Source of the DNA: a virus
IMG/VR virus record: IMGVR_UViG_3300009184_000065
Coordinates: 1 to 48,924 of that record
DNA: 48,924 nt
Direction: 5' to 3' (one strand)
The notes under the pieces were generated by a model. The model was not told where the DNA came from and did no database searches. It was given only the letters and a program-made list of their open reading frames with translations. Positions 5,303 through 48,924 of this stretch are shown here, piece after piece. Position numbers and translations under genes: made by a program. The stretch's first letter is position 1, and each line of letters opens with the position of its first letter.

Positions 5303-6102
5303 TATAAAGTAAACAACTTTCCATCTACAACGCAAGAGTAGTCTGGTGCAATATGAATCATTTGAATATGAGGATAGTCGTTAACAATATGTGCTACCGC
5401 AAATCCCTTTTGCCAGTCGTGATGCTGACTGTATTTCATTCCATCACTCTTTTCATCACACATATGACCGATTTCATATCCACGAAGCGTTTCTCCTTCG
5501 CCGTTGTTTCTAAGTTCATATGTTACCATATGGGAAGCAATTCTGTGTGAGTGTCCACGAATTAAAGAAACCTGTAGGTCTTCTACATCTTTTCTAACTG
5601 ATCCTGTTGCTGCAATTGAAAGACCGTGGTGTACGTGTATGTCTCCAAAGCGTCGCTTAGGTAGTTCATTATAATAAATATATTCATACCCCAAAGAGTC
5701 TAGACTCCATAAAGATTCTGGTGTAACCTCACTGATATACTCTGGAAGCTTGGCATCTACATAATTAAAGACTCTAATGTCATGGTTGCCTAATGCAGAA
5801 AACAGTTGAGCATCTGGAAGCATCTCTCTTGTCTTTGCATAGAAGTCTCTAGCGCCCTTTGCTTCATGACGCATCATTGGAACAATTAAATCTCCGCTTT
5901 CAGTCTTATGATAATTTAAGAACTCTGCAGATCTTCCTTCTGTATACTTGCTATAACACGCCTGATCATCTGTATCACCTAGGTAATCAACAACGTCTGG
6001 CTTAAACCATTTCATTACTTTAAACCATAGGGCAATCATCTTGTCATCTTGATACGGAAACTGCTGATCGGATGAAAGCATCCATTTTAAATCGTTGCTC
6101 AT
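5302..6102 (-). CDS. Calcineurin-like metallophosphoesterase
   Basis: A two-metal phosphoesterase of 266 residues. Motifs appear in the usual order: SSDQQ (D12), LGDTDD (G42-D43), ALGNHD (GNHD 105-108), HVHHG (H159) and RGHSH (GHSH 183-186). The first motif is D-x-Q instead of D-x-H, a variation seen in some phage members; the other metal ligands are intact. The substrate cannot be read from sequence. DNA-end processing or nucleotide or RNA phosphoester cleavage would all fit its place at the head of the replication operon. It starts with ATG preceded by AAGGTAGACA and lies just downstream of a strong promoter and a hairpin leader. Confidence 0.85.
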   Translation of the reverse strand: MSNDLKWMLSSDQQFPYQDDKMIALWFKVMKWFKPDVVDYLGDTDDQACYSKYTEGRSAEFLNYHKTESGDLIVPMMRHEAKGARDFYAKTREMLPDAQLFSALGNHDIRVFNYVDAKLPEYISEVTPESLWSLDSLGYEYIYYNELPKRRFGDIHVHHGLSIAATGSVRKDVEDLQVSLIRGHSHRIASHMVTYELRNNGEGETLRGYEIGHMCDEKSDGMKYSQHHDWQKGFAVAHIVNDYPHIQMIHIAPDYSCVVDGKLFTL

Positions 6103-6119
6103 TGTCTACCTTAATACGT

Positions 6120-6144
6120 AAAAAAGTCACGGGTACGTGACTTT
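6120..6144 (-). terminator. Hairpin with T-run between structural and replication genes
   Basis: On the minus strand a perfect 9-bp stem (AAAGTCACG/CGTGACTTT, loop TACC) runs directly into six T residues. This is a standard intrinsic terminator placed after the structural genes. However, it lies downstream of the promoter at 6157-6184, so it would also sit at the very start of that promoter's transcript and could act as an attenuator. Confidence 0.72.
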
Positions 6145-6156
6145 GATGTTACATTT

Positions 6157-6184
6157 ATTGTAACATATTGGCCTAGCTTGTCAA
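6157..6184 (-). promoter_or_regulatory. Strong promoter for the replication operon, with a palindrome over -10
   Basis: On the minus strand TTGACA (6184-6179), a 16-nt spacer and TACAAT (6162-6157) preceded by TGT give a strong extended -10 promoter. An inverted repeat, ATGTTACA/TGTAACAT with a 5-nt spacer (6146-6166), covers the -10 box and the expected start site, so it may be a repressor operator. Confidence 0.65.
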
Positions 6185-6188
6185 GAGG

Positions 6189-6635
6189 TTATTTTGTAAC
6201 TAATGTTCCTGCAGCAAACAATGTATATTTAACTGTAGTGTTTGCAGTAGCAGTTCTAAATCTAATAACTGCACTTGTTGAGGTTACACTTTCTATTTGT
6301 GGAAAAACTTGTGAGTTTGCCCAGGATGGAGAAGTTTGTCCAATTGTATTTATCTGAACCCACACATTGGGAGTTGAAGTAAATTCAACATTCTTTCCAA
6401 AAGATACCGTAGTTGTAGTACCAGCGCCTGCAGACTTTATTGCCTTACTTCCTGCAATAGCAACTATTGTAGAAGATACTGCAGCTGGTGGAGTATTGGC
6501 ACCAGCGTTTTGTATATTAATAACAGTAGGTGCTGCGGGTGCTGCAAGAAGATTTATATTTTGAATCATTGCAGCAATCAAATCAGAGGTTACTGGATCT
6601 CCTGCTGATATCTTGGTTGGTGTAAGTTGTACCAT
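6189..6635 (-). CDS. Probable minor virion protein (148 aa)
   Basis: A Thr/Ala/Val-rich, beta-sheet-like protein of the kind found at the end of tail modules. The C-terminal 70 residues (from about FGKNVEFTSTPNVWVQI to KYTLFAAGTLV) look like one compact beta-sandwich, with some resemblance to small tail-tip or H-type lectin-like domains; I would not name it further. It follows the S74 fiber and a coiled-coil mini-protein in the same operon, with GAGGAG a few nt before its ATG. It is the last structural gene before the terminator and the replication promoter. Confidence 0.6.
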   Translation of the reverse strand: MVQLTPTKISAGDPVTSDLIAAMIQNINLLAAPAAPTVINIQNAGANTPPAAVSSTIVAIAGSKAIKSAGAGTTTTVSFGKNVEFTSTPNVWVQINTIGQTSPSWANSQVFPQIESVTSTSAVIRFRTATANTTVKYTLFAAGTLVTK

Positions 6636-33908: not shown

Positions 33909-35165
33909 TTACGCCTCTTCTATTGCTTTTACTCTCGCTGTAAGCTCTTGTACTGCTTTGATTAATGGAGATATAAACTCTTCATATCTTAAAGCCTGAG
34001 TATTGTCTTCTTGATTAACCCAACCACCAAAATCTGCAACTCCAGCTTCATCTAGAGCTTGCTTTACTTCTTGTGCAATTAATCCGTAGTGTGTTCTATT
34101 ACCAGCTACTGGTGTCTCAGAATGGCTTCCGTCTTCATTTGGAGTATAAGTAATCCCTCCAACATTGTATTTATAGCTTACTGGATTTAAAGAATTAATA
34201 AAGTCTAGGCCTAAGTCAGACTCAGCAATTGTATTCTTTGCATTTATATCTGATGAAACAATAGTGGAAGTTTGAATAAACATATTGCCTGATGCTATAA
34301 CAGATGCTGCTTTAATTGTTCCTGTAAAAAAAGCATCTTTCCAAGACTTGGCTGTACCCGTACCTGCTGCTGCATCTTTTCCTATACTCCATGTTCCAGA
34401 TCCAAGTGGATACCAATGTGAGTTAACTCCGTCTGATACTCCGTTAGGAATATTTAAACTAATAACTTGATTTATTGGATCAAGGACTGCGTTAGCGCCG
34501 TCTGCTCCAGGTGCTCCGTCTGCTCCTGGTGCTCCTGGTGCTCCAGCTGATCCTGTTGCTCCTGTTGCTCCACGGGGAATTGTAAAGTTTAATACAACTG
34601 CGCTAGATGTGCCAGAGTTTGTTACAGATGCATTTGTTCCTGCATTTCCAGTTGATGTGGATCCAACAGATATTGTTGCCGCTGCTGGGCCTGTAGCTCC
34701 TGTAGCGCCTGTAGCTCCTGTAGCGCCTGTAGCTCCTGTATCACCTTTTGGAATTGTAAATGTTAAAGTTTGTGATGGTATTCCGTTGGAAATTGTTTGT
34801 TGAGAAATTGTTACATTAGCTTGTGTTCCAGCTAGCCCAGTAATTGTTGGATTTACTGCAATTACATTTGCTGGTCCTGGACCACCTAGTACGCCATCTA
34901 CGCCTCTGGGAATTTTAAAATTAAATCTTGCTGCTGTAGCTGTTCCTACATTGATGACTTGTGGCATTGAGCCTGGAGCAAGAACATCAACTGATTCAAC
35001 CACTATGGTAGCGGCAGTTCCTGGATTTCCTTGGTCACCCTTTAAATCTGGATTTGATGAAACCCATGCAGAAATGTCGTCTGCAAGGTTAAGCAGATCT
35101 CTAGGGACATCTGGTGAGTCTGTATATGTTGGGAAACGCCAACCGTTTATACCTGTAGTAGCCAT
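33909..35165 (-). CDS. Collagen-like tail fiber with S74 self-cleaving domain
   Basis: A 418-residue fiber protein. Gly-X-Y repeats lie at residues 43-51 (GDQGNPGTA), 141-160 (mostly GAT) and 199-224 (GAPGAPGADGAPGADGANA). Between them are beta-rich IPRG/IPKG segments. Residues about 303-418 form an intramolecular chaperone (S74) domain: SSDINAKNTI, LIAQEVKQALDEAG and a terminal helix. Collagen repeats should form a triple-helical shaft; the GAP triplets place Pro in the Y position, which collagen prolyl 4-hydroxylases modify. The gene lies 7 nt downstream of the oxygenase cluster, which makes it the best placed substrate candidate. Confidence 0.82.
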   Translation of the reverse strand: MATTGINGWRFPTYTDSPDVPRDLLNLADDISAWVSSNPDLKGDQGNPGTAATIVVESVDVLAPGSMPQVINVGTATAARFNFKIPRGVDGVLGGPGPANVIAVNPTITGLAGTQANVTISQQTISNGIPSQTLTFTIPKGDTGATGATGATGATGATGPAAATISVGSTSTGNAGTNASVTNSGTSSAVVLNFTIPRGATGATGSAGAPGAPGADGAPGADGANAVLDPINQVISLNIPNGVSDGVNSHWYPLGSGTWSIGKDAAAGTGTAKSWKDAFFTGTIKAASVIASGNMFIQTSTIVSSDINAKNTIAESDLGLDFINSLNPVSYKYNVGGITYTPNEDGSHSETPVAGNRTHYGLIAQEVKQALDEAGVADFGGWVNQEDNTQALRYEEFISPLIKAVQELTARVKAIEEA

Positions 35166-35172
35166 TTTTTAA

Positions 35173-35802
35173 TTATACCACCTTGTCAGTTTTACGCCAG
35201 AATCCTGGGCACATATATTTTACACCACTGGTTACTGGTAAAGACTCGTGATAGTACGGCTCTACCGAAGGGAATATTACTATGCTTCCAGCCTTTGGCT
35301 TTATTTTTACGCCTTGTTCTTTAAAATAAATTTCTCCGCCTTCGTAATCATCGTTTAGATAAAGTACAACAGAAATATTTGGATTGTCTCCATTGCTATA
35401 ATCATCAACATGTGGGCCCATTGACTTACCAGTGGAGTATTTGCTTATTGATAATGGCATTAGGGAGCCGATGTCCATACTATGCATGTTGCCATAGTTT
35501 TCTGAAGAGCCTACAATTGCATTTTTTAAAATATTATTAATTCTTCTTATGTCTGGGTGCGTGTCTGTATCTACATTGTTGCTAAATCTTTTTTGATAAC
35601 CAAATACATACTCTGTATCTCCGCTTGCCGCCCATTCTTTCCACGCAGGGATACTGGTGTTTTCATTTAGGCCTCCGTCAGAAATCTCTATTAAATTAAT
35701 TAAGTAGTCGGGATCAGTAATAACATTTTCATAGTAATGTATCTTCCCGTATTGGGTTAGATTTACGCTATCCATTTCTTCCATTTTTTTCGTCTGCTTC
35801 AT
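35173..35802 (-). CDS. 2OG-Fe(II) oxygenase A (prolyl-hydroxylase-like)
   Basis: A jelly-roll dioxygenase of 209 residues. The iron triad is visible: H131-x-D133 in GPHVDD and H185 in YYHESLPV; K195 (SGVKY) should bind the C5 carboxylate of 2-oxoglutarate, as in prolyl 4-hydroxylases. The motif LYLNDDYEGGEIYF (about 147-160) is shared by all seven enzymes of this cluster. Residues AGSIVIFPS mark the strand before the distal His. This is the shortest member and the last in the cluster, overlapping oxygenase B by about 35 nt and lying just before the collagen-like fiber gene. Start uncertain: ATGs at 35802, 35784 and 35775 are all in frame. Confidence 0.88.
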   Translation of the reverse strand: MKQTKKMEEMDSVNLTQYGKIHYYENVITDPDYLINLIEISDGGLNENTSIPAWKEWAASGDTEYVFGYQKRFSNNVDTDTHPDIRRINNILKNAIVGSSENYGNMHSMDIGSLMPLSISKYSTGKSMGPHVDDYSNGDNPNISVVLYLNDDYEGGEIYFKEQGVKIKPKAGSIVIFPSVEPYYHESLPVTSGVKYMCPGFWRKTDKVV

Positions 35803-36619
35803 CTCTTGTATTTTTACCAGATTTTAGATCAGCTATCTGTCTTTCTCTATCCATCTGTCTCCATAGCTCTTCGCCATACTTATCTTTGTTTGCATGCCAT
35901 GCTTCCGAGCCTGGATAGTCATACATATAAAAACTTCTAATAAAATATTTTATTCCATTTGTTACAGTCTTTACTCCGTGATAGTATGGTGCTCTTGATG
36001 GAAAAATTGTTACATCGCCAAATTCTGGTTGGTACATATGTTTTACATACTCTGCATTTGGATCATTTGATTCATCTTGGAATATCTTAAAGGATACTTG
36101 TCCTCCATCATAATCATGATTTAAATACATGCAGCATGTTACAAAAAATTTAAAGCCTGGCTCTTCGGTTTTTTCTTGCTGAAAATCTGTGTGGTGTCCC
36201 ATTACTGATCCAGTTGGTTCAAAACTCTCATGAGGTATATACTTGAGTAGTGTTGCGGTTGTGTGGCTTATCGGAGAGCCTTCTGGTGGAGTCTCTCCAG
36301 TAAGCTCAAAATAGTGCTTGGTCATATTATAAAAAACATCTTCTATGTAGTTATAGAAAAATTTAAGCTTTTCATCTGTGACTTCGTCAAAATTAATATC
36401 TTGTTTAAATTCATTATAGGGCAGAACTCCTGGAACATTGTGTGGTCTAGTAGCTTTAACTGGAAAGTTTGTCTGCTTGCCAAATGTGTACCAGTCTACC
36501 CACATATTATCAATAGACTTAATGTGTTCAAAACATTCCATAAAATAATCATTATTGAAGACATTTTTGTAAACAATAATCTTTGGAGCTATCTTATAAA
36601 AATCTGTACCCTCAAGCAT
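35768..36619 (-). CDS. 2OG-Fe(II) oxygenase B
   Basis: A 283-residue enzyme with H143-T-D145 (GHHTDF), H214 (YYHGVKTV) and K224 (NGIKY), plus MYLNHDYDGGQVSF in place of the usual DDYEGGE motif. It shares a C-terminal extension with oxygenase D (GSEAWHANKDKYGE, then a helix ending in ELWRQMDRER) not present in the others, and an N-terminal WYTFG segment. B and D are therefore close paralogs. I chose the ATG at 36619 (MLEGTDFYK) because AAAGGAAA lies 5 nt upstream; an earlier in-frame ATG at 36715 lies inside oxygenase C and adds a basic tail without support. Overlaps C by 8 nt. The enzyme has a complete triad and should be active. Confidence 0.87.
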   Translation of the reverse strand: MLEGTDFYKIAPKIIVYKNVFNNDYFMECFEHIKSIDNMWVDWYTFGKQTNFPVKATRPHNVPGVLPYNEFKQDINFDEVTDEKLKFFYNYIEDVFYNMTKHYFELTGETPPEGSPISHTTATLLKYIPHESFEPTGSVMGHHTDFQQEKTEEPGFKFFVTCCMYLNHDYDGGQVSFKIFQDESNDPNAEYVKHMYQPEFGDVTIFPSRAPYYHGVKTVTNGIKYFIRSFYMYDYPGSEAWHANKDKYGEELWRQMDRERQIADLKSGKNTRDEADEKNGRNG

Positions 36620-37376
36620 ATTTGTTTCCTTTATCCCATTCTTCTTTCTGCTTTGCCTGTTCAATTCTAACTTGCTTTTCTTCTTCTTCCCATCGATCAA
36701 GTGTCTCTTGATCATAGACTAGTTCTTCATAGTCCCAGAACGATACCATGGTGTATCTTGTTCCAGCGGTTATTTCTGCTACTCCGTGTATATTCTCGTA
36801 CCCGCCTGGGAATACGTAGTAGGAATATGCGTTTGGCTTAAATGATAAATAGGTTTTCATTTCATTATCTTTGTCGCAAAAATAAAGGTCTCCGCCTTCA
36901 TAGTCGCTATTTAAATAAAGTATGCCTACATATTTATTAATCTCAAAAGCATTTGGCTTTCCTGAATTATCTGAGTTATCTGAGTGTGGACTTGCAAAGC
37001 CTCCAACGTCCCATTTTTGTGCATGAGATGTATTTGCTCTAACCTTTCTATCAAAAACAGTTTCAACTGCTTCTTTGTACTTGTCTTTTAGCTTATCAAA
37101 AAAACCATCTGGCAATCCAAACTTAGCCATAGTTTCTGAGTCTGTCTTAATTCCTTTGCCCGACGATCCGTAGAATGCAATGTCTCCCCACTCTACGTCA
37201 CAGTTTTCAAAAAAGTTAATCATCTTTGTGACTATTTCTGGATCAATAAAATCTGGTATCTCTACAACAGTATTACGAGTTACGCCCAGGACTCCACGCT
37301 TATTATCTGGGACCTCATCATCTTGAAGGTATATAAATTTATTTTTATCTATAACATCAATCATTCCATCTATCAT
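36612..37376 (-). CDS. 2OG-Fe(II) oxygenase C
   Basis: A 254-residue enzyme with H131-S-D133 (SPHSDNSD), H197 (NIHGVAEI) and R207 (GTRYTMVSFW); here Arg replaces Lys as the 2-oxoglutarate anchor. The core motif reads LYLNSDYEGGDLYF. A C-terminal Glu/Lys-rich helix (about 222-254) extends beyond the jelly roll. It lies in the middle of the overlapping run: its ATG overlaps the stop of D (TAATG), and its end overlaps the start of B by 8 nt. By its Arg anchor and HGV motif it groups with oxygenase E. Confidence 0.87.
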   Translation of the reverse strand: MIDGMIDVIDKNKFIYLQDDEVPDNKRGVLGVTRNTVVEIPDFIDPEIVTKMINFFENCDVEWGDIAFYGSSGKGIKTDSETMAKFGLPDGFFDKLKDKYKEAVETVFDRKVRANTSHAQKWDVGGFASPHSDNSDNSGKPNAFEINKYVGILYLNSDYEGGDLYFCDKDNEMKTYLSFKPNAYSYYVFPGGYENIHGVAEITAGTRYTMVSFWDYEELVYDQETLDRWEEEEKQVRIEQAKQKEEWDKGNKYA

Positions 37377-38251
37377 TAGTATTTACCGTTGTCCCTTCCA
37401 AAGAATTCATGAACCGACTCTCCATCAATCTGTGCATTAAAAATTTCTTTTTTAAATCTATCCTTTTCCATTTGATCCCAGACATCTTCGCCATACTTTG
37501 CTTTATTGGCATGCCACTCATCTGAACCCTTATCTTCAAATTCCCAGAAGCATCTAATCATATATCTGCGTGGGCCAAATGACTTTCTAACTCCGTGCAT
37601 GTATGGATCTCTTGAAGGGAAAACAATAACGTCTCCAGCTTGTGGCTTATGAGAAACATAATGATCATTAATCTTAAAGCATATCTCTCCGCCCTCATAA
37701 TCATCATTTAAATAAAATGTCGTTGTTAGTCCAAACTTTACTCCTGGATTTTCTTTTAGGGGAACAACAAAATCTGTGTGGTAGTTCATCGCATAATGTT
37801 CTGAAATTCCAGCATCATTTTCATAGATATTAATAGATGCTGAGCCTTTACTATAATTAGGAAGCGATACATCTGGATTATTTTTAAGGTAGTGATTAGT
37901 TACCTTATAAAATATGTTTCCTACTTCTTCAGTTAAATCCGATTGACTTGAAACTGGGCCCCAAGATCTTGCCCACTTGTATTGTTCCTCTGTTGGAAAT
38001 TTTTCAAAATTTATTCTTTGCTCCATTAAAGAAAGCATAGACCCAAAGGTATACCATTTCTCCCAGCCTTCTTGTTTTTTAGCTGACTCAAGAAATCCAT
38101 TTATATCCTTAAATAAATTTCTGTAGACATAAACCTTGGGATAAATTTCTTCAAACTTTATTTCTTCTTCTGGTCTCTGCTTTTTAATTTTATGAGTGTT
38201 ATCGCAGTAAGGATATGTTTGAGATCTTCCACAAATACATTGTTTGGTCAT
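37376..38251 (-). CDS. 2OG-Fe(II) oxygenase D with N-terminal CDGSH-type iron-sulfur motif
   Basis: A 291-residue fusion. Residues 5-20 read CICGRSQTYPYCDNTH, fitting the CDGSH pattern (C-x-C-x2-S/T-x3-P-x-C-D-G-x-H) at every position except G18, which is N. The ligands C5, C7, C16 and H20 could hold a [2Fe-2S] cluster. The rest is an oxygenase with H158-T-D160 (YHTDFV), H219 (YMHGVRKS) and R229 (GPRRY), the motif FYLNDDYEGGEICF, and the same C-terminal extension as B (GSDEWHANKAKYGE). The iron-sulfur unit might pass electrons to the active site or sense redox state. ATGA overlap with E upstream, TAATG with C downstream. Confidence 0.87.
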   Translation of the reverse strand: MTKQCICGRSQTYPYCDNTHKIKKQRPEEEIKFEEIYPKVYVYRNLFKDINGFLESAKKQEGWEKWYTFGSMLSLMEQRINFEKFPTEEQYKWARSWGPVSSQSDLTEEVGNIFYKVTNHYLKNNPDVSLPNYSKGSASINIYENDAGISEHYAMNYHTDFVVPLKENPGVKFGLTTTFYLNDDYEGGEICFKINDHYVSHKPQAGDVIVFPSRDPYMHGVRKSFGPRRYMIRCFWEFEDKGSDEWHANKAKYGEDVWDQMEKDRFKKEIFNAQIDGESVHEFFGRDNGKY

Positions 38252-38928
38252 GGCTGCTTATCTCCTGTATGCTTCAATATGGTCCAGAAGAAAGGAATAA
38301 CGTAACGAATTCCACTTGTTATTTCTTTTACTCCATGGATATAGTTCATATCGCCTGGGAAAAAGTATCCTGCTGCAGGCTTAGGCTTAAACTCTATGCC
38401 TTGATTTGGGAAATAAAGTTCGCCACCCTCATAATCATCGTTTAAATAAAACAATCCTGAAAGATCATAGTAAGGGAAATCATTTGCTTTACCAGCGTCT
38501 GGACCTGTGTGCAATTCTTTATCTGCATGAGGCTCTTGTCTATACCCTGGAAGCCACCTAACAATTGCTGGACTTGTTGGAAGTGCATCAACATTAAAAT
38601 ATTCATCAACCTCTATCTTAAGTCTAGCTACTATTTTTTCAATTACTAAAGATATTTCTGGATTAATTTTATCTAAGATCGGTCTTGATGCAACACGATT
38701 ATCCCAGTAGGTTGAGTCGTAAATTACTGTTCCATTTTCATTGTAATGTGTCTCTGTTATGTCCCACTCTTCAATAGATCGAGCTGCTTCCAAAAGAAAC
38801 TTGTGCTCTTCTGAAGTCATTATGTTTTCTCTAGATTGAATATTGTCTGGAGAGTTTCCAAAGAAACCTGAAGGAGTTATTGAAACTCTTTCATCCCATC
38901 CCCAATTACTGGCTGCTTTTTTATCCAT
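38248..38928 (-). CDS. 2OG-Fe(II) oxygenase E
   Basis: A 226-residue enzyme with H134-A-D136 (EPHADKEL), H198 (YIHGVKEI) and R208 (SGIRY), and the motif FYLNDDYEGGELYF. The N-terminus contains NWGWDERVSI, with no further domain. I chose the ATG at 38928: it lies 6 nt after TGG-TATAAT, a pattern for leaderless transcripts, while the earlier in-frame start at 38970 lies inside the preceding gene. It therefore may begin a second transcript within the cluster (E, D, C, B, A). The end overlaps D by ATGA. Confidence 0.85.
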   Translation of the reverse strand: MDKKAASNWGWDERVSITPSGFFGNSPDNIQSRENIMTSEEHKFLLEAARSIEEWDITETHYNENGTVIYDSTYWDNRVASRPILDKINPEISLVIEKIVARLKIEVDEYFNVDALPTSPAIVRWLPGYRQEPHADKELHTGPDAGKANDFPYYDLSGLFYLNDDYEGGELYFPNQGIEFKPKPAAGYFFPGDMNYIHGVKEITSGIRYVIPFFWTILKHTGDKQP

Positions 38929-38934
38929 ATATTT

Positions 38935-38943
38935 ATTATACCA
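38935..38943 (-). promoter_or_regulatory. Putative leaderless promoter inside the oxygenase cluster
   Basis: On the minus strand TGG-TATAAT is followed by 6 nt (AAATAT) and the ATG of oxygenase E. The -10 box is perfect; no good -35 is present, which fits an extended -10 promoter. It sits in the 17-nt gap between two genes. Confidence 0.55.
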
Positions 38944-38945
38944 TC

Positions 38946-39674
38946 CTAGGAGTAGGTCCTTTTGGACCAAACTTCGTTTTTATAGATACCGCCGTCTGGC
39001 TTTCTATATTTTGCTGAATTTTCCATATTTTTTTTCTGTAGATTAGATGCTTTTTCAATTACGACTTCATGTTGCCAATCTTCTCTTTTAAAGGGAAGCA
39101 TTTGTGCATAAGGAGTGCCTGCTGGCAAAATGCCAGAGAATCCCTTTACTAAAAAGAACGGCATTGAGCCTGGCAAATTAACATTGTCATTATCAATGAT
39201 TCCTGAAGTAGTAAGGAATGGCAATTCAAATCTATTAAAAGGTTGTGAATACAATACGCTATAACCTGTAGGAGTTTCTATAGCCCAATCTGGAAACCAC
39301 GCAAAATGTGTTTCATGATATCCCTGTGGATGTTTAAACTGTGGCATAGGCGGTCTTACAGAGCAAAAATCTTCATATCTCTTATCAGTAATTTTTGCTG
39401 AGATAGCGCCAAAATCTCCTTCAAAAAACTCTATGTCGCATGGAGTTTTTAGCGTATACCCTGTGCCCATTATGTCAAAGATTGCTGGACATGCTTTCCA
39501 AGTAGGCATCTTACCACCCCCTGGATTTTCCCAGTATTCTCCGTCTGGCTTTTTTGCAAATCTGTCAGCTTTTCTATACCAGTCTGGAATACTTTTAATA
39601 ATTGGTTCTGGTTTTGATTTACTGTCTTTGTTAAGCCATGGTCTATTTGATACGAATTTAATCGTTAGTGCCAC
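38946..39674 (-). CDS. Probable jelly-roll/cupin-type protein 1 in oxygenase cluster
   Basis: A 242-residue protein of a family I cannot name with certainty; it resembles uncharacterised phage proteins (DUF6065-like) often near oxygenase genes. It aligns by eye with the next protein upstream: both have a Cys in a central strand (TWKACPAIFDIMGTGYTL here), an aromatic-rich region and a strand ending in AG-x(4)-Q/A (ILPAGTPYAQMLPF). The beta-rich pattern suggests a jelly roll, but no HxD...H triad appears, so it may be a non-catalytic partner. GTG start with GGGAAA upstream, overlapping the previous gene by 17 nt. Confidence 0.6.
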   Translation of the reverse strand: MALTIKFVSNRPWLNKDSKSKPEPIIKSIPDWYRKADRFAKKPDGEYWENPGGGKMPTWKACPAIFDIMGTGYTLKTPCDIEFFEGDFGAISAKITDKRYEDFCSVRPPMPQFKHPQGYHETHFAWFPDWAIETPTGYSVLYSQPFNRFELPFLTTSGIIDNDNVNLPGSMPFFLVKGFSGILPAGTPYAQMLPFKREDWQHEVVIEKASNLQKKNMENSAKYRKPDGGIYKNEVWSKRTYS

Positions 39675-40389
39675 ACTGTTTCCCGTCTTTAACGTATACA
39701 GTCTTAAGCTTTAATGCTTTAACTTCATGCTCTCCGACAGATTCGCCTTTTTCATTTATTGCATCTCTATACCAATCAGTCCACTCACCTAAAGCAGTTT
39801 TTACTGCAGAAGCATTTCCATATGCTTGTGCTGCTTGCTCAGCAACTGGATTGCTAACATAATCATCAACGTTTATAGTAGAATCTTTTAGCTGTCCTAA
39901 TGACAGAGGTATAATTGCTGCAATTACTTGTCCTGCTTTTATAGTAATTTCTTTGTTAGCAGTTAAAGCTTTTATTGCAAGAGGCAATGGGTGTGGATAA
40001 AAAGAAGTGGATATGACAGATGAAATAACTTCAAAATCTTTATTAAAGAAATTTGGAGGGTTTACAGCCAACAAGCTTATATTTTTATCGGTGACAAATT
40101 TTAAGTTTGTATTAAAGCTTAAAGTTGATTGTCCCCTGCCTGTATAGCAAAGACCTTCTCCTTCTAGTATCTTTACATGATCTCCAGAGTGGTCATTGAC
40201 TCCATCCCAAATAAACTTAATATCAGTTTTTGCAGAAATGCCCCAGCCTATAGTGTTTGCAAGGGTTACTGGAAAACAATGGTATGCGTGTTTGTCAAAG
40301 GTCGCATCCATCCAGTCTCTTACTACTGATAGAGGTTCTACAACAAAAGCGGTTGGAGAAGTTCTATAGGCATTTATTTCATTACTCAT
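39658..40389 (-). CDS. Probable jelly-roll/cupin-type protein 2 in oxygenase cluster
   Basis: A 243-residue relative of the preceding protein. Matching parts are YHCFPVTLANTIGWGIS with CPAIFDIMGTGY, and ITIKAGQVIAAIIPLSL with ILPAGTPYAQMLPF. It contains several His and Asp residues (WDGVNDHSGDHVKI) but not in the spacing of a 2OG-oxygenase triad. Located between oxygenase F (TAATG overlap upstream) and jelly-roll protein 1 (17-nt overlap), so it is translated together with the oxygenases. It may bind or present the substrate, or carry out a different metal-dependent reaction. Confidence 0.6.
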   Translation of the reverse strand: MSNEINAYRTSPTAFVVEPLSVVRDWMDATFDKHAYHCFPVTLANTIGWGISAKTDIKFIWDGVNDHSGDHVKILEGEGLCYTGRGQSTLSFNTNLKFVTDKNISLLAVNPPNFFNKDFEVISSVISTSFYPHPLPLAIKALTANKEITIKAGQVIAAIIPLSLGQLKDSTINVDDYVSNPVAEQAAQAYGNASAVKTALGEWTDWYRDAINEKGESVGEHEVKALKLKTVYVKDGKQCGTND

Positions 40390-41126
40390 TAGTCACCTGT
40401 CTCAATAAACATTTCTTGTGTATGGAATTTGGCGCTATAGTCTAGCATTGTTACTATTGAATATTTAGTTCCTGATACAACCTTTTTAGCTTGATGAGGA
40501 TACATAAAGTTTGAAGGGAAAATAAACAGGTCTCCTGCTTGTGGCTTAATGTTTAGATTTTGCAGTCTAAAGTAAAGCTCTCCACCCTCATAGTCGTCAT
40601 TGAAATATCCTACAAGTGAAACTGTACAGTTGTATGAATAGCCATGATCGTGGTGCTCCATAAAGTGATTTCCAGGCTCGTATCTAATAAAGTTAAATGC
40701 TTCCCAGTATCTTAAATTATGAATGTTATATGTTCTACAATAGTCACGAACTGCTTGGTATTGAGGGTCATAGCACTCTTGCCAAATTTCTCTCAGCTTA
40801 TTGTCTGCTTCTTTTTCTCCATAGATATCTGTCTTCTTGTATTTAAAGTCAACACAATCCCTGTAGTCTGGCATTCTTTCTTGGTAGCCCACGTAAGCTG
40901 GCATCCACTCATACTGATTATCTTTTGCTGCAAGGATTTCTTCAAGTCTTTCTGGGATGTTTCCACCTGTTGGCAATACATTTCTATAGCACCAGATTCC
41001 GTTTCCTAAATCAATTTTTTCTGTCCAGGTCTGCTTGATTGGTCTGTGTTGCTCTGCTTCCCATTCGCTAATATACTTTTGGTCTTGCAGCTTTTTAATT
41101 TCTTGAGCTGGGTCTATCGTTTCCAT
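40389..41126 (-). CDS. 2OG-Fe(II) oxygenase F
   Basis: A 245-residue enzyme with H158-H-D160 (MEHHDHGY), H211 (YPHQAKKV) and K221 (SGTKY), and the motif GYFNDDYEGGELYF. The His-rich HHDH stretch makes the first iron ligand slightly ambiguous, but the H-x-D spacing is right. It shares the segment RDCVDFKY and a NFIRYEPG/NFVKYEGEG region with oxygenase G, so the two arose by duplication. Strong ribosome site AAGGAG 5 nt before the ATG. Second gene of the cluster, 8 nt after G. Confidence 0.87.
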   Translation of the reverse strand: METIDPAQEIKKLQDQKYISEWEAEQHRPIKQTWTEKIDLGNGIWCYRNVLPTGGNIPERLEEILAAKDNQYEWMPAYVGYQERMPDYRDCVDFKYKKTDIYGEKEADNKLREIWQECYDPQYQAVRDYCRTYNIHNLRYWEAFNFIRYEPGNHFMEHHDHGYSYNCTVSLVGYFNDDYEGGELYFRLQNLNIKPQAGDLFIFPSNFMYPHQAKKVVSGTKYSIVTMLDYSAKFHTQEMFIETGD

Positions 41127-41134
41127 TTTTCTCC

Positions 41135-41881
41135 TTAGTACGGTGAAGATGCTGCTGCAGCAGCATTTTGAATATGTCCCTGGTGGGCCATATCATTTAA
41201 ATCCATCATTACAACAACGCAATACTTTGTTCCAGATTTTATTGGAAGCGATGCGTGTTCATATATATAATTAGACGGGAAGATTGCTATGTCCCCTGGC
41301 TTTGGCTTTATTATTTTATTATCCATTCTTGGATAGTATATCTCTCCGCCTTCATAATCATCGTTTAAGTAAATTACTGCTGACACAGCTGCTTTATACA
41401 TTGGGCCATCATCTGCATGAATTTTAAACTCTTTGCCTTCGCCTTCATACTTTACAAAATTAAACACCTCGTAGTAGGTTACATTAATTCCCCAGTATCT
41501 ACAATAATGATCAATACAAGATTTAAGCTTTTTATAAATTTCATCATACACTTGCCATAGCTCAGCATTTTCTTCATTCTGTTTACCGCCAAGTGTGCTG
41601 TAGTTCATCTTAAAATCAACACAGTCTCTAGCCTTTTTAATTGGCTGATCTGAATTTGTTACACGGGCTTCGTTCCAATGATACTTAGTTCCTGGCTTTA
41701 GATTCTTTTCTAGTGTATCTATGTACCACTGTATTCTTGTTTGGTCTAATGCATTGTTGTATAGGTCTAAGCCTAACGCCTCATTGGTTACTTTAATGTC
41801 CCCAAACATTACGTCTGCCTTCCTATTTGAAGAAGTTTCAGACCTGTCTTTTTCAAACCAGTCATCTTGTATATTAGTCAT
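41135..41881 (-). CDS. 2OG-Fe(II) oxygenase G, first gene of the cluster
   Basis: A 248-residue enzyme with H155-A-D157 (KIHADDGP), H209 (YEHASLPI) and K219 (SGTKY), and the motif IYLNDDYEGGEIYY. KPGDIAIFPSNYIY precedes the distal His. The C-terminus ends in an Ala-rich tail (AAAAASSPY). It starts the oxygenase cluster just downstream of a strong terminator and is likely translated from a leaderless mRNA, because TATACT ends 6 nt before the ATG and no ribosome site is present. Sister paralog of oxygenase F. Confidence 0.88.
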   Translation of the reverse strand: MTNIQDDWFEKDRSETSSNRKADVMFGDIKVTNEALGLDLYNNALDQTRIQWYIDTLEKNLKPGTKYHWNEARVTNSDQPIKKARDCVDFKMNYSTLGGKQNEENAELWQVYDEIYKKLKSCIDHYCRYWGINVTYYEVFNFVKYEGEGKEFKIHADDGPMYKAAVSAVIYLNDDYEGGEIYYPRMDNKIIKPKPGDIAIFPSNYIYEHASLPIKSGTKYCVVVMMDLNDMAHQGHIQNAAAAASSPY

Positions 41882-41930: not shown

Positions 41931-41964
41931 AATAAGGGGGCCAGCTCTCGCTGGCCCCCTTATT
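41931..41964 (-). terminator. Strong intrinsic terminator after the FN3-Hint gene
   Basis: A perfect 14-bp stem (AATAAGGGGGCCAG paired with CTGGCCCCCTTATT, loop of 6) lies 10 nt past the stop of the gene at 41974. On the minus strand the hairpin is followed by an A/T-rich run (TTATTTGTATATAG) without a long T tract. It separates the fiber operon from the oxygenase operon. Confidence 0.88.
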
Positions 41965-41973
41965 TTATTTATT

Positions 41974-43323
41974 TTAAGATATTACTATGTAGTTTCCTGC
42001 TATGAACCATTGTGATGGCTCGCATCTTATGTCATAGACATCCTTTGCTGGAAGCTTTTCAATAGTGTCAACTGTCTCAAATATTATCTCGCAAGATTCT
42101 ATTCTTAGGGTTACAAGTATGTCTCCAACTTGAACCTGTCCAGTCTCCTTATATTTAATTAGTTCGCCTTCTTTTACAAAGATTGGCTGTCCTTCTGAGA
42201 ATAGTGTATCAGAGCCGTTGAACTTAATTAAATCTTTTTGACTTAATTCATGCTTGACAACAGTTGTCTCGCTAAGTGTTACCTTATTTCTTAGAACTAT
42301 ATCTGAAGTCATATCTCCATTGTTTAGTTCAGATGGATCAATTGTGAGAAGTACATCTCCAACCTTTACATCTTTTGCTAAGATATATCCATTTGAAGTT
42401 AACAGCTGTGAGTCTTCTTCAATACAAAACTTAGACTTAAAGTAAGGTCCAAACCCTGGTGGGAAGAACGGTGGGAAGAACGGTCCGAACCCTGGTGGGA
42501 AGAACGGTCCAAACCCAGGCGGGAAGAACGGTGGGAAGAATGGGAAGTACGGGAAGAACGGTGGGAAGTATGGTGGGAAGAATGGGAAGTACGGGAAGTA
42601 CGGTGGGAAGTATGGTGGGAAGAATGGGAAGTACGGGAAGTACGGTGGGAAGTATGGTGGGAAGAACGGGAAGAATGGGAAGAACGGTGGGAAGAATGGG
42701 AAGTACGGTGGGAAGTATGGTGCGGTTGTAGTAACGCTATTTGAAGAAGCTGAATAAGGGCTATTACCATTTGCATTCTTTGCAAGAACTTGATAAGTCT
42801 GCGCTGTTCCAGCCGTTTCATTAATTGTTGTTGATGTTACTCCTGCAGCAAGATCATAAGTTGGTCCATCTGAGGACTTAAGAGTATATCCAGTATTTGG
42901 AGTTCCTCCTAAATTAGATGGTGCTGACCAAGAAACTACGTCTTGATTAGCATTTGGAGAAGATGCTGTTGGCGCTGATGGCGCATTTGGCAAAGTAGTT
43001 GGAGTAGCTGCAGAGGAAGTAGCTGGTAAGCTATTTCCTGCTGCATTTGATGCTACTACAGTAAATGTATAAGATGTTCCTCCATTTAAGCCAGGAAAGG
43101 AAAATGAAGTTCCTGTGGTGCTTTGTGTTGTTGTAACTGGAGTTGATGTAATTGTGTAAAGTGTTGCTGGTGGAGATGCAGCTGGTAATTCCCAAGTTAG
43201 GTTTACTGATCCATTTCCGCTTGCTCCGCCATTTACGGCAGTAGCAGCTAAAGATGTGACTGCATTTGGCTCTAGGAAGTTGTCCTGGGCCGATGATTGA
43301 ATACCTACTCTTTTATTTGCCAT
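41974..43323 (-). CDS. Fibronectin-III / aromatic-Pro repeat / Hint protein
   Basis: A 449-residue protein with four parts. Two fibronectin-III domains (about 18-108 and 112-199; SYTFTVVASNAAGNS, TYQVLAKNANGNS). A tract made only of Phe, Pro, Tyr and some Gly (201-296, units like PPYFP and YFPFFP). A C-terminal Hint domain (300-449) beginning C300-IEEDSQLL with KVGDVLLTI, and ending VYDIRC, QWFIAGNYIVIS. C300 is the usual nucleophile for the N-S acyl shift. The block-B TxxH appears as SxxQ (FSEGQPIF), and no C-terminal His-Asn is present, so only N-side processing is plausible. Likely a virion adhesion protein. A ribosome site, AGGAGA, precedes the ATG. Confidence 0.8.
   Translation of the reverse strand: MANKRVGIQSSAQDNFLEPNAVTSLAATAVNGGASGNGSVNLTWELPAASPPATLYTITSTPVTTTQSTTGTSFSFPGLNGGTSYTFTVVASNAAGNSLPATSSAATPTTLPNAPSAPTASSPNANQDVVSWSAPSNLGGTPNTGYTLKSSDGPTYDLAAGVTSTTINETAGTAQTYQVLAKNANGNSPYSASSNSVTTTAPYFPPYFPFFPPFFPFFPFFPPYFPPYFPYFPFFPPYFPPYFPYFPFFPPYFPPFFPYFPFFPPFFPPGFGPFFPPGFGPFFPPFFPPGFGPYFKSKFCIEEDSQLLTSNGYILAKDVKVGDVLLTIDPSELNNGDMTSDIVLRNKVTLSETTVVKHELSQKDLIKFNGSDTLFSEGQPIFVKEGELIKYKETGQVQVGDILVTLRIESCEIIFETVDTIEKLPAKDVYDIRCEPSQWFIAGNYIVIS
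42436..42723 (-). repeat. Aromatic-proline coding repeat (Phe/Pro/Tyr/Gly only)
   Basis: About 290 bp of imperfect tandem units, 9-42 bp long (TTCCCACC, TACTTCCC and TTCTTCCC blocks on the minus strand), encoding about 95 residues of Phe-Pro with Tyr and, at the Hint side, GFG. Units vary in third positions, so the repeat is kept at protein level. Such tracts may form extended poly-Pro-like rods. Confidence 0.85.
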
Positions 43324-48180: not shown

Positions 48181-48924
48181 TTAACTAATTACAATAAATC
48201 CTTCTGCAATAAACCACTGGTTTTCTAGTGTCCTAATATCGTATACTTCTTTATCAGTATCTGTCTCTATGGAGTTAACCAAAACTTCATTTATTGTAGA
48301 GCCGTCTATTGTTAATAGCGTATCTCCAATTTTTACGGATCCCGCTTCTACCCATGTTGCAAGTCCGTCTTGTTTAATGAATATTGGCTGTCCGTAAGAG
48401 AAATACTTTTCTGTTCCGTTGAATGAAAGAACATCCTTTGTTGACATTTCAGATTTAATAACTTCAACGCCTACAAGATTTACATCTTTATTGACATTAA
48501 AGAACTTCATTGATTGATTGCCAAAGTCTGCTGCTGAAATAGAAACTAGTTTATCTCCAATTGATATATCTTTTGCTGCAACATAACCATTATTTAATGT
48601 TAGCAACCTGGTATTTGCTTCTAAACAAGATTTACTTGCTTTAAAAGTTGGGAACGTTGGGAACGTTGGGAACGTAGGGAACGTTGGGAACGTAGGGAAC
48701 GTTGGGAAAGTTGGGAAAGATGGCGCCTTAAATGATGGGAAGTAAGGGAACGTTGGGAACGTTGGGAAAGTTGGGAACGTAGGGAACGTTGGGAAAGTTG
48801 GGAAAGTAGGGAAAGATGGCGCCTTAAATGATGGGAAGTAAGGGAACGTTGGGAACGTTGGGAAAGTTGGGAACGTAGGGAACGTTGGGAAAGTTGGGAA
48901 AGTAGGGAAAGATGGCGCCTTAAA
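48181..48924 (-). CDS. Phe-Pro-Thr repeat / Hint protein, C-terminal part
   Basis: The gene enters the window from the high-coordinate edge; 247 residues are visible. The first ~95 are tandem repeats of FPT, with a spacer FKAPS and an FPYFPS end in every 32-residue unit. A Hint domain follows (about 100-247): C100-LEANTRLLTLNNGY, SIGDKLVSI, then FSYGQPIFIK and KIGDTLLTI, and a final WFIAEGFIVIS. It matches the Hint domain of the gene at 41974 over the whole length, including SxxQ in place of TxxH and the C-terminal VIS. N-terminal domains are outside the window. It is followed by a palindromic promoter region and then a virion gene, so a virion role is likely. Confidence 0.82.
   Translation of the reverse strand, partial: FKAPSFPTFPTFPTFPTFPTFPTFPTFPYFPSFKAPSFPTFPTFPTFPTFPTFPTFPTFPYFPSFKAPSFPTFPTFPTFPTFPTFPTFPTFPTFKASKSCLEANTRLLTLNNGYVAAKDISIGDKLVSISAADFGNQSMKFFNVNKDVNLVGVEVIKSEMSTKDVLSFNGTEKYFSYGQPIFIKQDGLATWVEAGSVKIGDTLLTIDGSTINEVLVNSIETDTDKEVYDIRTLENQWFIAEGFIVIS
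48650..48924 (-). repeat. 96-bp tandem repeat encoding 32-residue Phe-Pro-Thr units
   Basis: The block GGCGCC recurs at 48722, 48818 and 48914, exactly 96 bp apart, with the sequence between nearly identical. Each unit encodes FKAPS, seven FPT triplets, FPY and FPS. About three units are visible, and the array continues beyond the window. Near-identity at DNA level suggests recent expansion or frequent recombination. Confidence 0.9.

Follow-up and report, generated by a model that had tools for sequence, protein, structure and literature searches.

What a single phage does with seven paralogous oxygenase genes lying side by side is the question raised by the locus described here. The window, which is the whole IMG/VR record IMGVR_UViG_3300009184_000065 with its 48,924 bases, comes from a tailed phage and includes genes for a portal, a head protease and a major capsid protein; the best matches of the protease are found in Streptomyces and Rhodococcus phages (top identity 43-45%), which suggests an actinobacterial host. 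Between positions 35173 and 41881, where a preliminary description of this DNA had placed them, seven open reading frames on the minus strand (A to G) encode 2-oxoglutarate (2OG)-Fe(II) oxygenases. Judged from sequence comparisons, these are probably dedicated peptidyl hydroxylases of the prolyl 4-hydroxylase (P4H) or prolyl 3-hydroxylase (P3H) type whose target is the aromatic-proline repeat in a neighboring protein, P. The seven genes, with their scores in the Pfam family 2OG-FeII_Oxy_3 (PF13640) and their catalytic residues, are:

35173 to 35802, minus strand: A, 2OG-Fe(II) oxygenase, last in the cluster, orthologue group A; 55.1 bits; H131, D133, H185, K195
35768 to 36715, minus strand: B, 2OG-Fe(II) oxygenase; 36.1 bits; H175, D177, H246, K256
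36612 to 37376, minus strand: C, 2OG-Fe(II) oxygenase, orthologue group C; 35.7 bits; H131, D133, H197, R207
37376 to 38251, minus strand: D, 2OG-Fe(II) oxygenase with the N-terminal CDGSH-type motif CICGRSQTYPYCDNTH; 38.1 bits; H158, D160, H219, R229
38248 to 38970, minus strand: E, 2OG-Fe(II) oxygenase, likelier start ATG 38928; 27.7 bits; H148, D150, H212, R222
40389 to 41126, minus strand: F, 2OG-Fe(II) oxygenase, orthologue group F; 52.3 bits; H158, D160, H211, K221
41135 to 41881, minus strand: G, 2OG-Fe(II) oxygenase; 45.0 bits; H155, D157, H209, K219

All seven exceed the curated cut-off of PF13640, which is 27 bits (range 27.7-55.1 bits), and the HxD...H iron triad plus the basic 2OG residue by which a 2OG-Fe(II) oxygenase is recognized is complete in 7/7, just as had been claimed for them. 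When the whole record was searched in six frames, the same seven oxygenases were returned and none besides. Lys serves as the 2OG residue in A, B, F and G, and Arg in C, D and E. Of the subgroups proposed earlier, the F/G pair with Lys, the C-terminal extension common to the sisters B and D, and the Arg of C and E are present, but D also carries Arg and A is unpaired. The tight packing was likewise seen correctly: D and C overlap by 1 nt, E and D by 4 nt, and F overlaps by 1 nt with J2, one of two further genes inside the cluster that are described below, while F and G are separated by 8 nt. Longer overlaps are an artefact, as the first start codon was taken automatically. For B, ATG 36619 is a likelier start than 36715 and leaves an overlap of 8 nt, and with the start of E moved to ATG 38928 the overlap is gone.

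The PHROG labels “DNA endonuclease” and “ferrochelatase” (phrog_2297, phrog_3531, phrog_274) were rejected as carried-over annotation because Pfam, PDB profiles and the structure model agree on a 2OG oxygenase. These three PHROG families are matched by plain 2OG oxygenases, and their names, which look misleading, recur in phage records.

The copies are neither young nor in decay. A tree of the homologues separates ancient clades that are represented in many loci each (A in 68, C in 60, E in 60, FG in 50 and BD in 52), with good support throughout except for E (0.47): clade A comprises 78 sequences from its 68 loci with support 0.894, clade F covers 49 loci with support 0.984, and BD has support 0.987. 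Because these orthologue groups also follow each other in a constant order, recent tandem duplication can be ruled out. That order, P-[G]-F-J2-J1-E-D-C-[B]-A-[K]-600 aa-115 aa-portal-protease-capsid (aa, amino acids), was found in about 100 freshwater phage loci. Among 351 non-redundant homologues the first His is kept in 351/351, the Asp in 350/351, the second His in 350/351 and the Lys or Arg in 351/351, and within a clade the 2OG residue does not vary (Arg in 70/70 for C and 71/71 for E, Lys in 55/55 for F and 17/17 for G). The ratio of nonsynonymous to synonymous substitution rates lies at 0.02-0.13 for all seven genes in comparison with three related loci (L015, L016 and L021; A 0.05-0.07, B 0.04-0.13), and the portal gene gives similar values. 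All seven oxygenases are thus under purifying selection, and this, together with the residue conservation, excludes decaying copies. The number of copies is ordinary for the lineage, since 41 of 42 records contain 3-11 per contig and near-complete, cluster-bearing larger relatives (82-120 kb) contain 11-16. The earlier view that seven such genes are exceptional did therefore not hold, but the division of labor that had been deduced from them is supported.

Comparison with solved structures indicates what kind of reaction may be expected. The profile of clade C has collagen prolyl 3-hydroxylase 1 (P3H1; PDB 8k0e) as its nearest solved structure (E 1.7e-12), and so does that of clade E (E 1e-9), so that P3H and not P4H is nearest to these two. 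Clade F finds a bacterial P4H as best solved match, and clade A nearly does, with PKHD first and P4H close behind. With a pooled oxygenase profile, lysyl hydroxylase LH3 and PHD2 are matched as well, and an AlphaFold2 model of D (pLDDT 88) has PolD, PHD2 and P3H1 as neighbors in the PDB. By profile, most of the closest solved structures are peptidyl-proline enzymes (bacterial P4H, P3H1, PKHD), with LH3 also among them. With the bacterial collagen-type P4H (PDB 3itq/5hv0) and the algal P4H (2jig/3gze) the phage enzymes share the 2OG-FeII_Oxy_3 domain, the HxD...H triad and, in A, B, F and G, the Lys; they differ in that the identity is low, that they are encoded in a multi-enzyme operon, and that an aromatic-Pro repeat rather than collagen is proposed as substrate. 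Unlike P3H1, the phage C and E proteins consist of a single domain and come without the partners CRTAP and PPIB, and any likeness in substrate would be one suggested by sequence.

A candidate substrate is encoded immediately upstream of the cluster:

41974 to 43323, minus strand: P, putative substrate, with two fn3 domains (aa 1-202), an aromatic-Pro repeat (aa 203-299) and a Hint/intein-like C-terminus (aa 300-449)
42427 to 42717, minus strand: aromatic-Pro repeat of P, proposed hydroxylation target, with 13 PP units and 9 single-Pro FP[FY][FY] units

The fn3 part of P scores 44.4 bits against PF00041, and the 97 residues of the repeat include 39 Phe, 38 Pro and 11 Tyr. For an independent sampling, viral contigs were searched with the fn3 part of P only, and at least 2.5 kb of downstream sequence was required. 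Among the loci found in this way, a multi-oxygenase cluster accompanies P in 69/69 cases with a Pro-rich repeat versus 0/4 cases with a Pro-poor one. In 67/69 of the Pro-rich cases the oxygenases lie inside the locus; L236 and L295 have them beyond inserted genes, with eight per record. The four Pro-poor homologues of P (e.g. FGAFGFTPFGAF) come from records with 0-1 oxygenases. The linkage of cluster and repeat was replicated (33/33 Pro-rich, 0/3 Pro-poor) in two more searches that started from other lead sequences and of which only new non-redundant loci were counted. The preliminary description had stated that oxygenase homologues consistently found away from any proline-rich gene would speak against its proposal; when this was examined, the opposite was seen in both samples.

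A finer tie exists between a single enzyme and a single motif. In the first set, G is present in 31/32 loci whose repeat contains FP[FY][FY] and in 0/32 loci with purely FPPF or FxPPGF repeats, the sole exception being L265, which has the motif once and lacks G. The new loci gave 27/27 with the motif and 0/6 without it, so that in both sets together G occurs in 58/59 loci with a single Pro between aromatic residues and in 0/38 without. When G is mapped onto a tree of 95 loci, three changes are seen, each of them accompanied by a change of the motif; L045 and L049, which are nested among G-bearing phages, have lost both.

We propose that the seven-gene module hydroxylates the aromatic-Pro repeat of P. 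The modified residue would be proline, and each clade would take a different position, with the distinction lying between double and single Pro and between C-4 and C-3 of the ring. Hydroxylation may stiffen a polyproline-type helix or solubilize the very hydrophobic Phe-Pro stalk; alternatively, the hydroxyl groups could be offered to the host surface or serve for further decoration. A bolder version, towards which we are rather reserved although it is by no means far-fetched, would be a “hydroxylation code”, in which each orthologue group has its own proline context, so that the enzyme set could be predicted from the repeat and vice versa, and the module would be a dedicated line for a new hydroxylated aromatic-proline virion fiber.

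The same neighbor could also be modified at another residue, namely at Phe or Tyr, or at Lys, Asn or Asp at the borders of the repeat. Phe and Tyr are no less abundant in the repeat than Pro, and the family acts on several residues, as the matches to LH3 illustrate. However, Pro-poor repeats that keep their Phe (FGAFGF) lose the cluster, and prolyl enzymes prevail among the closest solved relatives, which is why we regard this variant as quite unlikely. It is also unlikely, if slightly less so, that cluster and FPP protein merely travel together in one syntenic tail module without an enzymatic link. This explanation draws on the shared ancestry of the loci and the few independent transitions among them, but it does not account well for loci in which the fn3 part is retained while the repeat loses its Pro and the cluster vanishes, for the loss of G along with its motif in L045 and L049, or for the two loci that keep both P repeat and cluster despite five genes inserted between them. 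A collagen-style reaction on a different neighbor has to be considered as well, as directly after A follows a collagen-like gene:

33909 to 35165, minus strand: K, collagen-like protein with (GAT)n/(GAP)n, related to tail spikes and fibers; in part of the loci only

Besides the window, many relatives have K in this place, and the solved neighbors of the oxygenases include collagen P4H, P3H1 and LH3. Clusters nevertheless persist without K, which is absent beside many of them, and only a few Pro of the window's K stand in an X-Pro-Gly context; furthermore, three relatives by capsid (G046, G049 and G050) combine several collagen-like genes with just two oxygenases and lack an FPP protein. K as the general partner was ruled out on the basis of its frequent absence and of these three genomes, and that the oxygenases act on K in collagen fashion seems very unlikely to us, although K could be a secondary substrate, a weaker candidate than P. 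Of the two flanking proteins that had been taken for proline-rich virion proteins, only one is truly rich in Pro: 38 of the 97 repeat residues are Pro at 41974, whereas the protein at 33909 is a collagen-like GAT/GAP protein with few Pro. Least probable of all, in our opinion barely tenable, is that the genes are auxiliary metabolic genes which alter 2-oxoglutarate or other metabolism of the host, as has been proposed for cyanophages, among them phages with many 2OG oxygenases (PMC3037559, PMC9602691). Lowering 2OG would need neither constant synteny in a block of tail genes, nor coupling to a repeat, nor orthologues kept apart by selection.

Several points weigh against hydroxylation of the P repeat by the seven enzymes. 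There are few Pro-poor loci, some of them related to each other, and the loci share ancestry, with only 2-3 independent transitions of G that are all concordant but leave a tree-aware test non-significant. The FP[FY][FY] rule was spotted post hoc in the first set, though the new loci obeyed it. Some lineages lack D or B, and no feature of the repeat yet accounts for this. TM-scores between the D model and PDB structures are modest, with about 0.45 when scaled by query and 0.6 when scaled by target. Single 2OG oxygenases of cyanophages sit elsewhere, by helicase and DNA genes, and an extension of the repeat link to them was dropped as unsupported for this reason. Finally, we infer from gene context that P is a tail or fiber component of the virion. 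The virion-protein hydroxylation suggested in the preliminary description thereby stands as far as prolyl-hydroxylase-like enzymes, a division of labor and a flanking Pro-rich substrate, P, are concerned; K is an unlikely target, and the virion place of P is a matter of its gene context.

Aquatic phages commonly carry 2OG-Fe(II) oxygenases, for which the explanations by host metabolism that we found in print are untested proposals. Cultured T4-like cyanophages usually carry 1-5 such genes (PMC3037559, PMC9602691), and the cyanophage S-SCSM1 has 24, which were read as host reprogramming (PMC9602691). S-SCSM1 resembles the present phage in its many paralogues, four of which lie in a row adjoining tail-fiber genes, one of these with FRAP/RQPRNF repeats; it differs in that the other copies are scattered and that the stretch examined contains no DUF6065/fn3/Hint module. 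The P4H of the chlorella virus PBCV-1 acts on peptide substrates, and hydroxyproline in viral proteins has been claimed (Eriksson 1999, as relayed in PMC9301287); PBCV-1 is an algal virus, and the account given there describes no seven-gene array tied to a neighboring repeat protein. In the open-access literature, we found no description of a phage module in which several hydroxylases are coupled to a protein with an aromatic-Pro repeat, and nothing on freshwater actinophage oxygenases or on DUF6065. In the freshwater phage lineage described here, which is an abundant one, the set of enzymes is linked to a recognizable candidate substrate and losses have occurred naturally, so that the role of phage 2OG oxygenases becomes testable. 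If the proposal is true, a hydroxylated Phe-Pro repeat protein would join the structures found in virions, and the module would offer enzymes with selectable proline contexts.

Two further genes are interleaved with the oxygenases, and a hairpin separates the cluster from P:

38946 to 39674, minus strand: J1, DUF6065-related, phrog_7084 (common to J1 and J2); no Pfam match
39658 to 40389, minus strand: J2, DUF6065 protein and paralogue of J1, which it adjoins in most loci; PF19541 90.9 bits, above cut-off
41931 to 41964, minus strand: hairpin resembling an intrinsic terminator, between P and G; 15-bp stem, GAGA loop and T-rich tail, AATAAGGGGGCCAGC-GAGA-GCTGGCCCCCTTATT

The strong hairpin would fit a structural protein that is made in excess over the enzymes modifying it. 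J1 and J2 had been taken for a pair of jelly-roll proteins, which was not borne out. By sequence they belong to DUF6065/phrog_7084, and the model of J1 (pLDDT 95) has only structures of the dUTPase/dCTP-deaminase type as top PDB matches (E 4e-4, TM-score by query about 0.3), so that a dUTPase-like (beta-clip) fold is likely, at modest scores. The arrangement of two paralogues inside an oxygenase operon is unlike that elsewhere: J homologues occur in haloarchaeal tailed viruses near adhesin and tail-fiber genes, and L260 and L393 have J beside a Pro-poor P and without oxygenases. J1-like genes with 58-67% identity are also present in bins of Gammaproteobacteria (L304-L311), where no oxygenase cluster accompanies them. 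J1 and J2 are part of the locus, yet they are not strictly bound to the oxygenases. Bacterial chromosomes were considered as the source of the whole module and rejected, as the Gammaproteobacteria have the J1-like genes alone; the only complete module from a bacterial bin (L312, 5.3 kb) seems to be a phage contig that strayed into it.

In D, residues 5-20 show the ligand pattern of a CDGSH-type [2Fe-2S] cluster, C-x-C-x2-[ST]-x3-P-x-C-D-x-[ST]-H, fused to the 2OG oxygenase. The N-terminus scores 27.2 bits against the CDGSH domain PF09360, below the cut-off of 29.5, and the segment is disordered in the metal-free model. The pattern was found in 20 of the sequences examined.

The surroundings of P vary in several ways. 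Between P and the cluster, L236 carries an insert with a TylF-like methyltransferase, a radical SAM/SPASM protein and a Cys/Met pyridoxal phosphate (PLP) enzyme, and L295 is alike by sequence similarity. The corresponding insert of L294 encodes a sulfotransferase, an Asp/Asn hydroxylase and a luciferase-like monooxygenase, and L096 resembles it by sequence similarity, with the sulfotransferase and the Asp/Asn hydroxylase inserted. These genes hint at further tailoring. In L256, L257 and L285, which have a Pro-poor repeat, the place of the oxygenases is taken by three genes in tandem, each of about 200-230 aa and lacking a Pfam match. The C-terminus of P (41974-42426 in the window) is exchangeable among loci: in some it is Hint-like, whether ending in HN or not, in others it is Cys-rich or missing altogether. 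In the window it reaches 15.6 bits against the Hint/intein family PF14890, whose cut-off is 35.8, and thus bears an intein-like resemblance only. L021 has an orphan Hint-like open reading frame (5912-6493) just downstream of P that is like the one of the window itself, as if the tip had been swapped. A second Pro-repeat protein, with (FPT)n and a Hint-like domain, is encoded at 48181-48924, where it is cut by the end of the window, and it represents a further candidate substrate.

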